Below are positions 3,414 to 25,790 of a stretch of DNA of 45,238 nucleotides, piece after piece; position 1 is the first letter of the stretch; the number at the start of each line of letters is the position of its first letter. The DNA is taken from contig JAJFUB010000069.1 of assembly GCA_021372615.1 (NCBI GenBank), positions 1 through 45,238 on the forward strand. Direction: 5' to 3'. The position numbers and the translations under genes were made by a program. The notes under the pieces are model-generated. The model had not been told where the DNA came from, ran no database searches, and was given only the letters and a program-made list of their open reading frames with translations. Source of the DNA: a bacterium. GTDB taxonomy: Bacteria > Armatimonadota > Zipacnadia > Zipacnadales > UBA11051.

Positions 3414-3441
3414 TTTCCGCAAGCGCCCGCCGGGGTATGAT
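3414..3441 (+). promoter_or_regulatory. Possible sigma70-type promoter of the first pseudopilin gene
   Basis: TTTCCG (3414-3419) and TATGAT (3436-3441) are separated by 16 bases and lie ~70 bases upstream of the pseudopilin start at 3509. The -10 box matches 5 of 6 consensus positions; the -35 is weak. Nothing else recognisable was seen in 3228-3413. Confidence 0.3.
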
Positions 3442-3508
3442 TGCTGTAAGTCCCGTTCGGCGAGATGCCTGTTGTTGTGCGGCGACAATGATTGGAGGGC
3501 AATCGCAG

Positions 3509-4231
3509 ATGATACGTTCCAGACGCGCCGGGTTCACACTGATTGAGCTGCTGGTCGTCATTGCCATCATCGCCATTCTGGCCGCCATCCTCTTCCCGGT
3601 GTTTGCCCGGGCGCGAGGCAAGGCCCGCCAGTCGGCCTGCTCCTCGAACATGAAGCAGCTCGCACTGGCCATCATCAGCTACACGACTGACTATGACGGC
3701 CAGACGTGCTACTGGAGCTTGGACCCGCTCGGGGCCGTCCCCAACAACCCGACGTGGGACCAGCAGATCATGCCGTACATGAAGAACGCGCAGATCCTGA
3801 CCTGCCCGGACAACAAGTACAACGGTGAGAGCGGCACGGTGCCCAATCAGTCCTCCGGCCCCAAGCGGGGCTATGCGCTGCCTCGCTATGTCAGCGGCAT
3901 CAACCAGGACGATCCACCCAACGTCGTCGCGACAGTCCTGCTGACCGAGAAGGGCGCCTATACGCCGGGGACCCTCAGTGACGCGGCGGTGGAGCATCCG
4001 CGCCAGTCGGGCAAGGGGCTCTTGTACCCGAGTGAGGCCTTCCGCCACAATGGCGGCCTGAACTTCGCCTTCCTCGACGGCCACGTCAAGTGGCAGAACA
4101 ACGGCTCGGGCCCGTTCACCAGCAATGGCGACGGCACGTGCGCCACGGCCTCCGACTGGGAGCCGATGAACGGCTCGCACATTCCGGGCCACATGGAGTA
4201 CCCGGAGGACTGGCCGGCGGGGACGGACTAG
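3509..4231 (+). CDS. Type II/IV pseudopilin with H-X9-DG motif (first of a tandem pair)
   Basis: 240 residues. After a short basic leader (MIRSRRAG) comes the class III prepilin signal [17 protein letters not shown], cleaved by prepilin peptidase before F and methylated there, then a hydrophobic helix that anchors the subunit in the membrane or fibre. The C-terminal domain holds the H-X9-DG signature ([12 protein letters not shown]) of DUF1559-type prepilin-like proteins common in Planctomycetes and Armatimonadota. The start at 3509 is preferred over an in-frame start at 3437 because GGAGGG lies 9 bases upstream and the leader length is right. It is paralogous to the next gene ([18 protein letters not shown] are shared). 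The export machinery is not in this window. Confidence 0.9.
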
Positions 4232-4393: not shown

Positions 4394-5062
4394 ATGACCC
4401 GCCGTCAGCCCCGCGGCTTCACGCTCATCGAGCTGTTGGTCGTCATCGCCATCATCGCCATCCTGGCCTCGATCCTCTTCCCCGTGTTCGCCCGTGCCCG
4501 CGCCAAGGCCCGGCAGTCGGCCTGCCTGTCGAACCTGCGGCAACTCGGCACGGCCATCGCCATGTACGCCGACGACTTCGACGAGATGCTGCCGCTGTGG
4601 TCACTCGCCGGGGGCGCTCCGGATGGCTCCGGTCGTGGGGCGCCGCCCGACTGCACCTGGGACACGCAGATCCTGCCGTACATGAAGAACACCCAGATCC
4701 TCATCTGCGGGGACAACCCCTACGGCCGCACGTATCGTTCGTACGCCATGCCGCGCTATGTCAGCGGCCAGGCGCTGGGCGTCTTCCCCAACGTCACCGC
4801 GACCGTGACGCTCTTTGAGAAGGGGCACTACCCGCCGGGCGCGTGGGAAGATGCGGCCGGGGAGAACTTCCACCAGTCCACGAGCATGAACCCTACGCCG
4901 CAGTACTTCCACTTCGGCGGCAAGGACTTCCTGTTCATTGACGGGCACGTGAAGTGGTACACGGCGTCGTCAGGCCCGTTCGCCGAGAACGGAGGCCCTG
5001 GCGGCGAGGCCGGCGACTGCGAGGCCGTGGGCGAGCATCCCACGGGAGACTGGCCGGCGTAG
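4394..5062 (+). CDS. Type II/IV pseudopilin with H-X9-DG motif (second of a tandem pair)
   Basis: 222 residues. It has the leader MTRRQPRG, the prepilin cleavage and helix segment [17 protein letters not shown], and an H-X9-DG motif near the C-terminus ([12 protein letters not shown]). GAGGAGGT ends 9 bases before the ATG, a strong ribosome site. It is a diverged tandem duplicate of the preceding gene: the two share [34 protein letters not shown] and the tail pattern SGPF-NG. The hairpin at 4274-4317 between them suggests separate transcripts rather than one operon. It is probably a minor fibre or surface subunit; its binding specificity is unknown. Confidence 0.9.
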
Positions 5063-11670: not shown

Positions 11671-12537
11671 TCACCTCCCCTCCAGGTACACCCGCTTCTC
11701 GCCGTACTTCGCCAGCGATGCGTCTACGCGCTCCAGCACGTGCTTGCGCCGCTGCAGCAGGCCCCGCAGCTCGTCGCCGGATACCCACGGACCAACCTGT
11801 TGCGTGAAGTCGGCCTCCGTGCTCCTCCGCAGGGCCTCGATCGTCCGGCGCGAGAAGCGGCGGAGGCGCTCGAAGTCCTGCGCGGGCTGAGACGAGGAGC
11901 CAAAGCCCTCGGCGTTGTCAATGAACCACAGCCTGCCGGTGCGGTCGGCCAGGATGTTGCCGCCCGAGAACCGGTCCATGTTGGTCTGCAGGTAGTCGAG
12001 GATGAGCATGTCGCAGACCTGGCACGCCTTGTCGAGGTCGGGGAGGCTCGTCTCCACATCGTCCAGCCGCGCCAGCCAGGTCAGCGCCCACCCGCGCGCG
12101 CCGGACCCAACCGGGTCGCGCGCCTCGTTGACCCACTGCTGCAGTGACCCGCTGACCAAGTCGTCATGTACGATGACGCGCCCCAGCGGCCCGCCCGCTT
12201 GCCGGAGCACAGATAGCGGCAGGCGGCGCTTGACGGTCACCGGCACATGCCCCATGCCGCACAGGCGGTCAATCTCGTACGCGGCGATCTCATACGCATA
12301 GCTCTGCGAGCTGTACTGGTGCGGCTTGAAGGCGCACTTGAAGCCCTTCGGAGTCCCATCCTCCAGCCGCAGCTTGTACTTGGTCATCATGCCCCCGTAG
12401 AGCGGCTCGGGAGTGCCCTTGACCGGCGCGCTCGTGAGCAGCTTCTCCACCTCGTCGCACGTCAGCGGGGCGGCAGTGACGAGACCCGCGGCGACGAGGA
12501 CCGCAAGCAGGATCAGGGCAAGACGGGCGTTGTTCAT
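11671..12537 (-). CDS. Exported FAM20/four-jointed-like protein kinase fold
   Basis: 288 residues. The first 23 residues are a signal peptide (LALILLAVLVAAGLVTAA). The rest matches the layout of the secretory-pathway kinase family known in animals as FAM20, four-jointed and VLK, which also has bacterial members. K71 in CAFKPHQYSS is the ATP-binding Lys; E83 in YAYEIAAYEIDRLCGMGHVP is the paired Glu; LDYLQTNMDRFSGGNIL gives catalytic D188 with N194; D207 in WFIDNAEGFG is the DFG-like metal ligand. I infer a kinase acting outside the cytoplasm on protein or glycan. GGGAGG lies 5 bases before the ATG. It is divergent from a secreted glycosidase-like gene. Activity is unproven. Confidence 0.75.
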   Translation of the reverse strand: MNNARLALILLAVLVAAGLVTAAPLTCDEVEKLLTSAPVKGTPEPLYGGMMTKYKLRLEDGTPKGFKCAFKPHQYSSQSYAYEIAAYEIDRLCGMGHVPVTVKRRLPLSVLRQAGGPLGRVIVHDDLVSGSLQQWVNEARDPVGSGARGWALTWLARLDDVETSLPDLDKACQVCDMLILDYLQTNMDRFSGGNILADRTGRLWFIDNAEGFGSSSQPAQDFERLRRFSRRTIEALRRSTEADFTQQVGPWVSGDELRGLLQRRKHVLERVDASLAKYGEKRVYLEGR

Positions 12538-12582
12538 GGGGGCCTCCCGGTGATACTGAGGCACGTCAGCAGTGTGTTCCGC

Positions 12583-12647: not shown

Positions 12648-14441
12648 ATGAGACTCATGCTCCTGCCGCTTCTCTGTGCGCTCCTCTGCACCGGAGCCCT
12701 CGCCGCCGGCCCCCTGGCCCAACGCGTGCTGTGGACCTGGGACAACCGCATGGACTGGGGCGGTGAGGGCCAGGCCGTCAGCGTCATGGGCGGAGGGCGG
12801 TACACGAAGGCCCCGGGGGCGTTCCTGACCGACTACAAGGCGCTCGTGGACTACGCGCACGACCACACGAGCTTCAACGCGGTCATCATCTGGGGCTTCC
12901 TGCGCGATGAGCATGGCGGCGTAGCGGCCTCGCAGGAGCTGTGCGAGTACGCGGCTGCCCGCGGCATCCGCATCATCCCCGGCGTGGGCACGAGCGGCTA
13001 CGAGGGCTACTACTATAGCGGCAACCACCCGTACAACATCACCACCTGGCTGCGCCGGCACCCCGAGCTGCGTGCGATCAGCAAGGCCGGCAAGCCGCTC
13101 AACGCCCTCTGCCCCACGCAGCCCGACAACATCAAGTGGCTCGACGACGGCTGCCGCTGGCTGTTCTCCACCTTCAAGATCGGCGGCATCAACTTCGAGA
13201 TCGGCGACTTCTTCGTCTGCTACTGCGACCGGTGCAAGGCCGCCCGGGCTGCGATCCCCGGCGACGCGCCGGACTACTACAAGGACATGGCGCTCTCCAC
13301 CGCCCCGGTGGCGAGGACCGCGCTCGAGATCGCCCCGGATGCCTGGCTGAGCTATGCCACCTACACGGGCTTCACGCCGGAGATGCAGCAGACGCCGCCC
13401 TCGTGGGTGAAGCTGATCCCCCCGTCCATGCTGTGCCAGTGGACCGTGACCGGCATGGAGGGCGGCCACTGGCCTGCGGGCCTGCGCCCGCCGACCCCGC
13501 GCAACCTGGGCTACCTGCACTGGGGCAACAAGTCCACCCACACGGTCCACCAGTTCTACCTCGACCGTGTTCGCGGCGTCTGCCACAGTGCCGCACAGGC
13601 CGGCTTCGAGGGTCTCGTCACGTACGGGGAGGACCCCGCCTCGCTGATCAGCATGCGCCTGTTCTACGAGGCCTGGAGCTACTTCCTCGAACACCCCGAC
13701 CGGCAGGTGGCGGACTTCACGCGGGACCGGCTGTCGCAGTGGTTCGGCTCGGCCGACGAGGCGCAGAAGGTGACGCCACTTCTGCTCGGCCTCGAACGGC
13801 AGGGCCTCACGCGCCAGAACCTGGCGGCCACGCTGGCCACCACCAGACAGGGCGCGGCGGCGGCGCCGACCGACAAGGCTCGGCAGACGTGGCAGGAGCT
13901 GGCGGCCTTCGTGCAGGCACGGCTGGCCGAGGTGGAGGGCGGCGACCGGGTCGTCACCGACCCGGCGCAAGTGACGGCCCTGATGCGCGACGGCTTCGCT
14001 GTGCCGCAGGAGACGAAGACGACGTTGGTGCTCCCCCGCCCGGCGGAGGGGACGCTGGAGCTGACCGTGCGGGTGAACTACTCGGTGGAGAATGGCCTGC
14101 TGCCAGTCATGCGCCTGACGTTCAATGGGACGCGGCTGGACCCGTCGTGGGCGCTCGACCGACCCACAACGATCGCGACGCCGCAGCACGGCGGCTACAC
14201 CTCTCTCCCGGCGTTCGAGGCGGGGCTGGGCGCCTGGCGCGTCAAGTATGACAACAACTGGACCATCAGCACCGAGGCGGGCGACAAGTACTATACGCCC
14301 GACTACAGCCCCACCTTCCGGTTCCGGCCGGGCGACCTGTGGCGCGACGCGGAGAACCGGCTGGAGATCGAGAACCTCGAGCAGCGCTTCCGCCCGTCGG
14401 AGAATGGGGTGCTGCTGGTCAAGGGAATGGCGATGAGGTAG
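12648..14441 (+). CDS. Secreted TIM-barrel glycosidase-like protein
   Basis: 597 residues with a signal peptide (MRLMLLPLLCALLCTGALAAG). Residues ~25-370 look like a TIM barrel: FNAVIIWGFL, GIRIIPGVGTSGYEG, GGINFEIGDFFVC, GLVTYGEDPASL. FEIGDFF and TYGEDP place acidic residues at strand ends, as in retaining glycosidases. CYCDRCKAA (~residue 187) is a compact Cys cluster seen in DUF4838-like and related glycosidases. Residues ~370-460 are helical (an alpha-domain after the barrel) and ~460-597 are beta-rich. The exact family was not assigned. Its stop is only 2 bases from the stop of the convergent methyltransferase gene, leaving no room for a terminator. Confidence 0.75.
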   Translation: MRLMLLPLLCALLCTGALAAGPLAQRVLWTWDNRMDWGGEGQAVSVMGGGRYTKAPGAFLTDYKALVDYAHDHTSFNAVIIWGFLRDEHGGVAASQELCEYAAARGIRIIPGVGTSGYEGYYYSGNHPYNITTWLRRHPELRAISKAGKPLNALCPTQPDNIKWLDDGCRWLFSTFKIGGINFEIGDFFVCYCDRCKAARAAIPGDAPDYYKDMALSTAPVARTALEIAPDAWLSYATYTGFTPEMQQTPPSWVKLIPPSMLCQWTVTGMEGGHWPAGLRPPTPRNLGYLHWGNKSTHTVHQFYLDRVRGVCHSAAQAGFEGLVTYGEDPASLISMRLFYEAWSYFLEHPDRQVADFTRDRLSQWFGSADEAQKVTPLLLGLERQGLTRQNLAATLATTRQGAAAAPTDKARQTWQELAAFVQARLAEVEGGDRVVTDPAQVTALMRDGFAVPQETKTTLVLPRPAEGTLELTVRVNYSVENGLLPVMRLTFNGTRLDPSWALDRPTTIATPQHGGYTSLPAFEAGLGAWRVKYDNNWTISTEAGDKYYTPDYSPTFRFRPGDLWRDAENRLEIENLEQRFRPSENGVLLVKGMAMR

Positions 14442-22872: not shown

Positions 22873-23784
22873 ATGCTCCGCAGACCGGACTACACCCAGG
22901 TCTGGCTGTCCTATGACTTCCTGATCGAGCAGGCCAAGTCAGGAAGAGCGTTCACCGTTCCCGATCTCATGAAGGCAACGGGTTGGTCGCGGGACAACTG
23001 TCGGACTAACCTGAGCAAGAGAATGAGCGAGTTTGTGGAGAGGCTGCGTCCGGGAACGTACCGTGCTCTCCCGATCATCAACCGCGTCCGGAAGGCAGAC
23101 TACGCAAGGCTCTTCTCACAGAAGAACTTGCTGTTCGGTGTCTATGACCTCTGGCTCTATCCCGACCTCGTCATATACGACTTCCTGATGCCCCTAACCC
23201 GGGAGGACCGTCTTCGGGAGAGCCTGGACCGGCTCTTCTATACTGACAGGATCGCCCAGCGGCTGCGGGAGATCGGGCCGGAGAGAATCCGGCGTAGGTT
23301 CCTCGCTCAGGAGCACGAGACCGACGATGAACTGGTTGGTCGCGTAGCCAGGCTCGCGGGGGAGGCCTTCGTCGGCTACTCCATATCGCACGTGAACGGT
23401 CGATTCCGCATGCACGAGCCCATGGACGCGAAGGCCGCGGCCGCGATCGCGCACAATGAGCAGGGCTACCTGGCTGACGAGACGACTGCCGTGGTCAGGT
23501 TCATCATGCGGTGTTCCGCGACTGCTTGTAAGCAGCCACCGGAGAGTGACCAACTTGACCTCGACCTTGAGGACGACCCCGATATGGAGGCTCAAGCTCA
23601 GGCGGCGGTGGAGCAGGAAAGGAAGCGGACACAGTGGCTGTTCCGTCAGGTGTTCGCCGAGTCAGTCGTCATGACCGTCAACTACGAAGAGGAGATCTGG
23701 CTGCTTGAGCAGGGGCCTCACATGCGTCTCTGGGTGTGGAAACGGCGGTCACCGGACGCCGAAGCCGACGACCCTACTGCTTGA
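22873..23784 (+). CDS. Uncharacterised winged-helix protein in R-M-like cassette
   Basis: 303 residues. Residues ~1-60 look like a winged helix: WLSYDFLIEQAKSGRAFT, VPDLMKATGWSRDNCRTNLSKRM. The remainder is mixed alpha/beta with GYSISHVNGRFR and YLADETTAVVRFIMRC, an acidic patch (DQLDLDLEDDPD, ~residue 237) and a terminal YEEEIWLLEQGPHMRLWVWKR. I see no clear PD-(D/E)xK, HNH or GIY-YIG nuclease motif. Its position, tail-to-tail with a methyltransferase (11-base overlap of the 3' ends), suggests a restriction, regulatory or defence partner, but the function is not known. GGGAGG lies 7 bases before the ATG at 22873; longer in-frame starts to 22699 lack a ribosome site. Confidence 0.7.
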   Translation: MLRRPDYTQVWLSYDFLIEQAKSGRAFTVPDLMKATGWSRDNCRTNLSKRMSEFVERLRPGTYRALPIINRVRKADYARLFSQKNLLFGVYDLWLYPDLVIYDFLMPLTREDRLRESLDRLFYTDRIAQRLREIGPERIRRRFLAQEHETDDELVGRVARLAGEAFVGYSISHVNGRFRMHEPMDAKAAAAIAHNEQGYLADETTAVVRFIMRCSATACKQPPESDQLDLDLEDDPDMEAQAQAAVEQERKRTQWLFRQVFAESVVMTVNYEEEIWLLEQGPHMRLWVWKRRSPDAEADDPTA

Positions 23785-24865
23785 GGTAGGCCTGTCGAGC
23801 TTCGTCAAGGGGGTGCCACTCTCCGTCGTCGCCCTCGACCAACCAGGTCACCCAGCCGTTGCTGGCCGGTGCACCCACTGCTGCACCGCCCATCTTGTGG
23901 ATGGATCCCACGGCATCGCCAAGTGCGATGCTCCCGTCGGCGAGGACCACTGCCTCGGCACCGGTCTTGGCGTGCCGCAGGACAGCCCCAACTGGGACGG
24001 CCCCGTCAGAAACGAGCACCGCGAAGGAAACCCGAGGCTTAGCTCTGTCCAGATCCGCAAGCGCTGTGATGTCCGCCAGAAGACGCGGCGTTGTTGTCGC
24101 CATCCGTCTCTTCGCTGCTTGGTGGTAGCTCTTGTCCCTCTCTATGCCGATCCATCGCCGGTGTAGCTGCTTCGCGACCACCCCGGTCGTACCCGTGCCA
24201 AAGAACGGGTCGAGCACGACATCGCCGGGGCGCGTGGAGGCGAGCAGCACTCGCTCCAGAAGCCTCTCTGGTTTCTGCGTCGAGTGGAGCTTCGTCCCAT
24301 CAGGAGCGGTGAGTCGCTCTCCACCGGAGCAGATGGGTAGAGTCCAGTCACTCCGGGCCTGCTTGTTCTGGTTAAGGTACTTCATCGCGTGGTGGTTGAA
24401 GGTGTATTTCGTCTGATCCTTCGACTTCTTGGCCCAGATCAGCGTCTCGTGAGCGTTCGTGAAGCGTACCCCGCGGAAGTTTGGCGTCGGGTTCGCCTTG
24501 ATCCACACGAAGTCATTCAGCATCCAGAACCCGAGGTCCATCATAAGCGAGCCGACACGGTAGATACTGTGGTATGACCCTATGACCCAGATCGTGCCCG
24601 TGTCTTTGAGCACATGCTGACAGGCGTGTAGCCACTCGAGGGTGAAGAGGTCGTAATGCTTGAAGTCCAGGAACTGGTCCCAGACGTCATGGACGCCCTG
24701 CACCCTTGTCATGTTCGGCCGGTACAACTCGCCGCGGAGTTGCAGGTTGTACGGAGGGTCAGCGAAGACCATGTCGACGCACTTCGACGGAAGGCGGTAC
24801 ATTTCCGTTACGCAGTCTCCCAGGATGACCTGGTCAAGTGGTAGTCCCGAGGGGTCGGCTCGCAC
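23774..24865 (-). CDS. Beta-class DNA adenine N6-methyltransferase (CcrM/HinfI-like) with C-terminal RAMA domain
   Basis: 363 residues. Motif IV DPPYN (D36-N40) precedes motif I DPFFGTGTTG (residues 219-228), the beta-class order of CcrM and M.HinfI. The target recognition segment between them contains [23 protein letters not shown]-type sequence typical of GANTC enzymes. Residues ~265-363 form the RAMA-like C-terminal domain (GSIHKMGGAAVGAPASNGW). It transfers methyl from SAM to adenine, probably in GANTC; the site is inferred. It starts with a GTG preceded by CGGAG. Compared with the broken resident copy it comes from lower-GC DNA, suggesting transfer with its cassette partner. Confidence 0.88.
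   Translation of the reverse strand: MRADPSGLPLDQVILGDCVTEMYRLPSKCVDMVFADPPYNLQLRGELYRPNMTRVQGVHDVWDQFLDFKHYDLFTLEWLHACQHVLKDTGTIWVIGSYHSIYRVGSLMMDLGFWMLNDFVWIKANPTPNFRGVRFTNAHETLIWAKKSKDQTKYTFNHHAMKYLNQNKQARSDWTLPICSGGERLTAPDGTKLHSTQKPERLLERVLLASTRPGDVVLDPFFGTGTTGVVAKQLHRRWIGIERDKSYHQAAKRRMATTTPRLLADITALADLDRAKPRVSFAVLVSDGAVPVGAVLRHAKTGAEAVVLADGSIALGDAVGSIHKMGGAAVGAPASNGWVTWLVEGDDGEWHPLDEARQAYLKQ

Positions 24866-24895: not shown

Positions 24896-25790
<895 letters not shown>

Follow-up and report, generated by a model that had tools for sequence, protein, structure and literature searches.

The window analyzed in this study, a stretch of 45,238 nucleotides from a bacterium of the phylum Armatimonadota, carries on its minus strand a gene for a putative exported FAM20-like kinase. 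The features of this locus are as follows.

11671-12537, minus strand: FAM20-like kinase gene (P0001), 288 amino acids, with its ATG at 12537 and its stop codon at 11671-11673
12543-12548, minus strand: likely ribosome-binding site GGGAGG upstream of the kinase ATG, read from the sequence
12469-12537, minus strand: predicted Sec signal peptide, residues 1-23 (MNNARLALILLAVLVAAGLVTAA), from sequence, hydrophobicity and a model helix at residues 3-18
12325-12327, minus strand: K71 of FKP, equivalent to hydra Fam20 Lys133 (the ATP-site lysine), from alignments, with roles from PMC5865150
12304-12306, minus strand: Q78, five residues before E83, from the sequence alignment
12289-12291, minus strand: E83 of YEIAAY, the alpha-C glutamate, equivalent to ceFam20 Glu218, from the alignment and PMC5865150
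11974-11976, minus strand: D188 of NMDRFSGGN, equivalent of the catalytic aspartate (hydra Fam20 Asp299), from alignments and PMC5865150
11956-11958, minus strand: N194 of NMDRFSGGN, at D188+6, from the alignment
11917-11919, minus strand: D207 of FIDNAEGFG, metal-binding (DFG-type) aspartate, from alignments
12648-14441, plus strand: divergent exported protein, glycosidase-like by eye, neighbor of the kinase gene

The roles of the residues were taken from Zhang et al. 2018 (PMC5865150) and placed through HMMER alignments. The open reading frame, coordinates and motifs given in a preliminary description of this DNA were borne out exactly, and every residue listed there is present; K71, E83, N194 and D207 had been named as residues of the kinase-like core, but D188, the equivalent of the catalytic aspartate, had gone unnamed.

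The composition of the kinase reading frame is of the coding type (GC1/2/3 = 0.67/0.45/0.90), and comparison with a 62%-identical orthologue indicated purifying selection (dN of 0.30 versus dS of 1.32). A chance match to kinase motifs was ruled out by the GC3 value, the GGGAGG element, the dN/dS comparison, the conservation of the residues and a profile match to FAM20C at E = 1e-16. A profile search of 46 genomes of the class found no paralogue in the window's genome, and another search gave a weak second match (E 0.08).

The N terminus of the protein (MNNARLALILLAVLVAAGLVTAA) reaches a 14-residue Kyte-Doolittle maximum of 3.06, and in the AlphaFold2 model it forms a helix at residues 3-18 followed by low confidence at residues 18-21. 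No lipobox was seen on reading the signal peptide. Most of the relatives also begin with a hydrophobic leader, as judged from sequence and hydrophobicity, and the window kinase is predicted to enter the export route through its N-terminal signal peptide. In one Armatimonadota relative (L003), the signal peptide is followed by what reads by eye as a TPR-like stretch and then by the kinase part.

Scored alone, the window protein fell below the Pfam cut-off for Fam20C (PF06702; 17.3 bits against 26.8), and its match to FAM20A in the PDB was at E = 0.003; homology to FAM20 was nonetheless significant with a profile of 19 relatives, which matched FAM20C at 1.1e-16, FAM20A at 5e-16, zebrafish Fam20C at 8e-15, hydra Fam20 at 1.6e-14 and Caenorhabditis elegans Fam20 at 2.3e-13. 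The next family was PI4K2B, at 3e-4. When the 19 relatives were scanned singly, Pfam Fam20C was matched by 16 (best, 3.8e-7), the most of any Pfam family, followed by FAM198 in 6 and HipA_2 in 3. All 19 also matched NCBIfam TIGR03843, the actinobacterial SCO1664 family, at 1e-7 to 1e-13; this match is significant but partial and far under the cut-off (28.5 bits versus 172.4). Since every member matches TIGR03843, the closest relatives among bacteria may be generic. The CotH spore-coat kinases are related to FAM20, but their hosts form spores, and CotH was absent among the Pfam matches of the window protein and the 19 relatives, a kind of scan that distant relatives could escape. CotH is a bacterial Ser/Thr kinase that acts on the coat protein CotB (PMC7821199).

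The AlphaFold2 model of the window protein (mean pLDDT 91.1, pTM 0.87) has a kinase fold, and FAM20 structures are the nearest of all matches. In Foldseek, the 28 top rows were all FAM20 chains, with E values from 6e-12, and PI4KII came next at 2e-6. In VIA-align, the FAM20 chains aligned over nearly the full length with Z scores of 20.3 to 21.8, the best being hydra Fam20 with a bound sugar (Z 21.8, rmsd 3.7 Å, 254 residues aligned), followed by PI4KII (16.3 to 18.0), Helicobacter pylori CtkA (14.7 to 15.5) and HipA (11.3 to 11.7). A cytoplasmic HipA-like kinase was ruled out by this low HipA score, 11.7 at most, together with the conserved signal peptides.

PI4KII is a cytosolic membrane-bound lipid kinase. 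Its second place in both the fold comparison (Z 18) and the profile search, together with the weak match of all members to TIGR03843, raises the question of whether the window protein, although exported, instead acts on a lipid, a small molecule or a nucleotide rather than on protein and is functionally nearer to PI4KII or to the HipA-like or SCO1664-like families. We regard this as unlikely: the profile search places FAM20 about 12 orders of magnitude before PI4KII, the structural comparison favors FAM20 by about 3 to 4 Z units, and the window protein, unlike PI4KII or HipA, is predicted to be exported.

The 19 aligned homologues span several phyla. All of them share E83, N194 and D207; N186, D188 and R189 are at least 90% conserved, and the position of K71 is Lys or Arg. 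The FKP lysine, the EIAA glutamate, the NxDR aspartate and the DN..F aspartate occur in the same order as in animal FAM20, and the spacing of 19 residues between D188 and D207 equals that of hydra Fam20. The window protein has its asparagine at D+6 (N194), and the Acidobacteriota clade has the canonical asparagine at D+5. The loop between K71 and E83 reads KPHQYSSQSYAYE, and the cysteines of the protein lie at positions 27, 68, 93, 172 and 175. Unlike animal FAM20, the window protein is short, uses bacterial Sec export as its counterpart of secretory-route entry, and has Gln78 (with a gap shift possible in the sequence alignment) where active Fam20 has an acid, as do all three Armatimonadota proteins. 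This additional acid before the alpha-C glutamate is Asp or Glu in active Fam20 (ceFam20 Glu213, hydra Asp152) and is important for activity; the pseudokinase FAM20A has Gln at this position (PMC5865150). Because the Fam20-specific acid is replaced by Gln78, catalytic competence, judged from sequence, is likely but not secured.

The same glutamine speaks for an exported pseudokinase in which the fold and nucleotide site are kept for a scaffolding or allosteric role, like that of FAM20A toward FAM20C. Furthermore, a clade of Acidobacteriota-type paralogues has lost the NxDRxxxN motif and forms its own supported branch in the tree; therefore, pseudokinases do arise in this superfamily. Such a role for the window protein nevertheless seems distinctly improbable, given that K71, E83, D188, N194 and D207 are all retained in the three Armatimonadota proteins and that the window's genome has no active paralogue for it to partner.

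The contacts of hydra Fam20 with Gal-Xyl are Thr114, Gln115, His301 and Lys321, and the marks of the FAM20C subfamily are a C-x-x-x-C motif and a D/N-F/H-F-Y-F-S/T-D loop (PMC5865150). Both FAM20C marks are absent from the sequence of the window protein, and the alignable hydra sugar contacts are replaced by Met50, Met51, Phe190 and Glu210, respectively; since these contacts all differ, they do not point to a GAG-type sugar kinase. A FAM20B-type kinase with a sugar of some exported polysaccharide as its substrate is the most doubtful reading, even with a sugar-bound chain as the best structural match (other FAM20 chains being close, at Z 20.3 to 21.5) and carbohydrate-active genes nearby, for the sugar contacts are lost and the glycan-degrading neighbors vary between genomes.

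The divergently encoded protein (12648-14441), proposed in the preliminary description as a possible target, had no significant family in a Pfam scan. The other neighbors in the window are a convergent xylose-isomerase-like TIM-barrel protein, an FG-GAP protein, DUF1559 pseudopilin-like proteins, URO-D-like and sugar-isomerase-like proteins and DNA methylases. In the two other Armatimonadota genomes, the genes beside the orthologue encode a GH5 cellulase-like enzyme together with an LVIVD protein (G256) and a SASA esterase together with a PD40 protein (G251). Genes for exported proteins or with a link to carbohydrates are common near these loci, but no neighbor of the kinase gene is conserved across the three; with no conserved partner, the glycosidase as substrate is only a guess, and the proposal is unsupported. 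Elsewhere in the window, two adjacent genes (23774-24865 and 24896-25513) match N6_N4_Mtase DNA methylases, one of them with a RAMA domain, and the DUF1559 pseudopilin-like proteins encoded in tandem at 3437-4231 and 4394-5062 carry an N-terminal methylation motif.

The gene is rare in its own phylum, occurring in 3 of 291 Armatimonadota genomes; its orthologues are in two other genera, and a profile search across the class to which the window belongs, 46 genomes in all, returned the same three genomes with one copy each. One scan of bacterial genome contigs yielded 20 loci with relatives, in Armatimonadota, Myxococcota/Deltaproteobacteria, Aminicenantes and Acidobacteriota and in one Clostridiales-labelled MAG (L020, JARYMI010000026.1). 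The cluster in this MAG is near-identical to those of Acidobacteriota/Aminicenantes, and the contig is possibly mislabelled or misbinned. In an Acidobacteriota-type phylum, the kinase profile found relatives in 47 of the 247 genomes surveyed; the earlier statement that bacterial relatives are few was therefore an understatement, although the gene is rare in the phylum of the window. In the tree, the three Armatimonadota proteins form one group (100/99), and the animal FAM20 fragments join a deltaproteobacterial sequence (90/91, which is not strong, in an unrooted tree with fragments only). Because of this grouping, animal FAM20 may derive from a bacterial FAM20-like stock. The deltaproteobacterial protein is an exported relative (L006, 7794-8777) that has the top bacterial score against animal FAM20, 50.8 bits.

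The Acidobacteriota-type relatives have a distinct gene context. In L020, L021 and L023, FAM20-like genes stand in tandem with genes for an exported calcineurin-like phosphatase and a TLC-type membrane protein. The TLC ATP/ADP transporter family (PF03219) was matched above the Pfam cut-off of 21 in L020 and L023 (44.6 and 48.7 bits), and the L021 protein was found both by PF03219 and by a profile built from the other two. Among the 247 genomes, TLC occurs in 76, comprising 47 of the 47 genomes with the kinase versus 29 of the 200 without it (Fisher 8e-31, not corrected for phylogeny). At least 20 genomes have the two genes on the same contig and within 10 kb of each other, a number that random placement would put at about 1.2. 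Across 24 regions, TLC was present in 19 and the phosphatase in 18, figures that are inflated because some regions were picked for a nearby TLC gene. The cluster in L020, L021, L023, L082-L089, L091 and L096-L101 comprises an exported metallophosphatase, one to four FAM20-like genes and one to three TLC exchangers, often with a gene for an RsbW-like HATPase_c protein. Eight regions have a single reading frame of about 620 to 990 amino acids that encodes both the phosphatase and the kinase-like domain, and the metallophosphatase part was confirmed by Pfam in four. These apparent metallophosphatase/FAM20-like fusions, each one open reading frame, are as follows.

L086, 10189-12048, minus strand
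L087, 5216-7075, plus strand
L088, 1801-3702, plus strand
L089, 6098-8074, plus strand
L098, 4922-6784, minus strand
L099, 4967-7948, plus strand
L100, 8466-10649, plus strand
L101, 3203-5152, plus strand

The exported paralogues that lack NxDRxxxN (L020, 4621-5454; L021, 7941-8792; L023, 7000-7806) retain the second aspartate, in VDFSEAF or VDLAEAF, and are encoded beside active-looking paralogues; judged by their motifs, these pseudokinase-like proteins recall the FAM20A/FAM20C pair. Three genomes (G291:C51, G292:C96 and G293:C99) each carry three TLC exchanger genes within about 6 to 12 kb, the outer two of which encode proteins of about 790 to 910 amino acids, possibly NTT-HEAT fusions. 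NTT-HEAT fusions of unknown function have been described (PMC5381601).

In these relatives, we postulate that the TLC exchanger would carry ATP outward and ADP inward and is probably the source of the phosphate donor for the exported kinases, and that phosphorylation is probably reversed by the co-encoded or fused exported phosphatase. How a kinase outside the cytoplasm obtains ATP had been raised as a puzzle for the window protein, and the exchanger offers a plausible answer for the relatives but not for the window itself: a PF03219 search of all 46 genomes in the class, among them the three that carry the kinase gene (the window's own included), found no TLC, and as a positive control it recovered TLC in five of seven genomes of relatives. 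An ATP exchanger as the supply in the window's own genome was rejected on this basis. The same search gave no TLC in the myxobacterial genome G297 (deposited as a chromosome and carrying the relative L013), and the partner phosphatase had no match at 1e-5 in genomes G000, G251 and G256. With neither the TLC nor the phosphatase partner found in the window's genome, the exchanger-phosphatase module belongs to another clade. The proteins encoded in the Acidobacteriota/Aminicenantes clusters (L020, L021, L023 and L082-L101) are homologous exported kinase-like proteins, about 25% identical to the window protein and with the same core residues; unlike these clusters, with their exchanger, metallophosphatase and tandem paralogues, the window gene is single and isolated.

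Computation places the window protein among FAM20 homologues: it has the fold of a kinase, keeps the residues for ATP, catalysis and metal, and carries a signal peptide. The profile homology, the FAM20-like model, the aligned residues and the signal peptide, which most relatives share, therefore argue for an exported FAM20-superfamily kinase, much as first proposed, with the reservations that Gln78 leaves catalytic competence unsecured and that the glycosidase substrate is unsupported. From its sequence and model, the protein lies outside FAM20 proper and is most likely an active kinase. We consider it probable that the gene encodes a small Sec-exported kinase that belongs, within the protein-kinase-like superfamily, to the FAM20/PI4KII branch and acts outside the cytoplasmic membrane. 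There, it would bind a nucleoside triphosphate and a divalent metal through K71, E83 and D207, and D188 would serve to transfer phosphate onto a molecule of the envelope or an exported protein, in the manner of animal FAM20C, which phosphorylates in the Golgi.

A broader and more tentative view, which we put forward as a possibility, is that bacteria hold an ancient and widespread extracytoplasmic FAM20-like phosphorylation system, self-contained as a module in the Acidobacteriota-type bacteria and represented by a stand-alone branch in the window, from which animal FAM20 may derive. In this module, TLC/NTT would export ATP, FAM20-like kinases with a dead FAM20A-like paralogue would phosphorylate envelope targets, and the phosphatase, often fused to a kinase, would reverse the reaction. 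A kinase-clustering survey placed FAM20 among the eukaryote- or Metazoa-specific clusters (PMC9758233), and the open-access literature, with subscription papers and preprints outside its scope, yielded no bacterial exported FAM20 and no exported kinase linked to an NTT or nucleotide exchanger. The functions of NTT-type transporters in free-living bacteria are largely uncharacterized (PMC5381601).

If these assignments are correct, exported bacterial FAM20-like proteins would extend the phosphorylation of secreted proteins to bacterial envelopes. The exchanger-phosphatase module of the relatives adds to the interest of the window's kinase, in that the linked TLC exchanger would provide a concrete answer to how an extracytoplasmic kinase is supplied with ATP and would suggest what NTT-type transporters may do in free-living bacteria.
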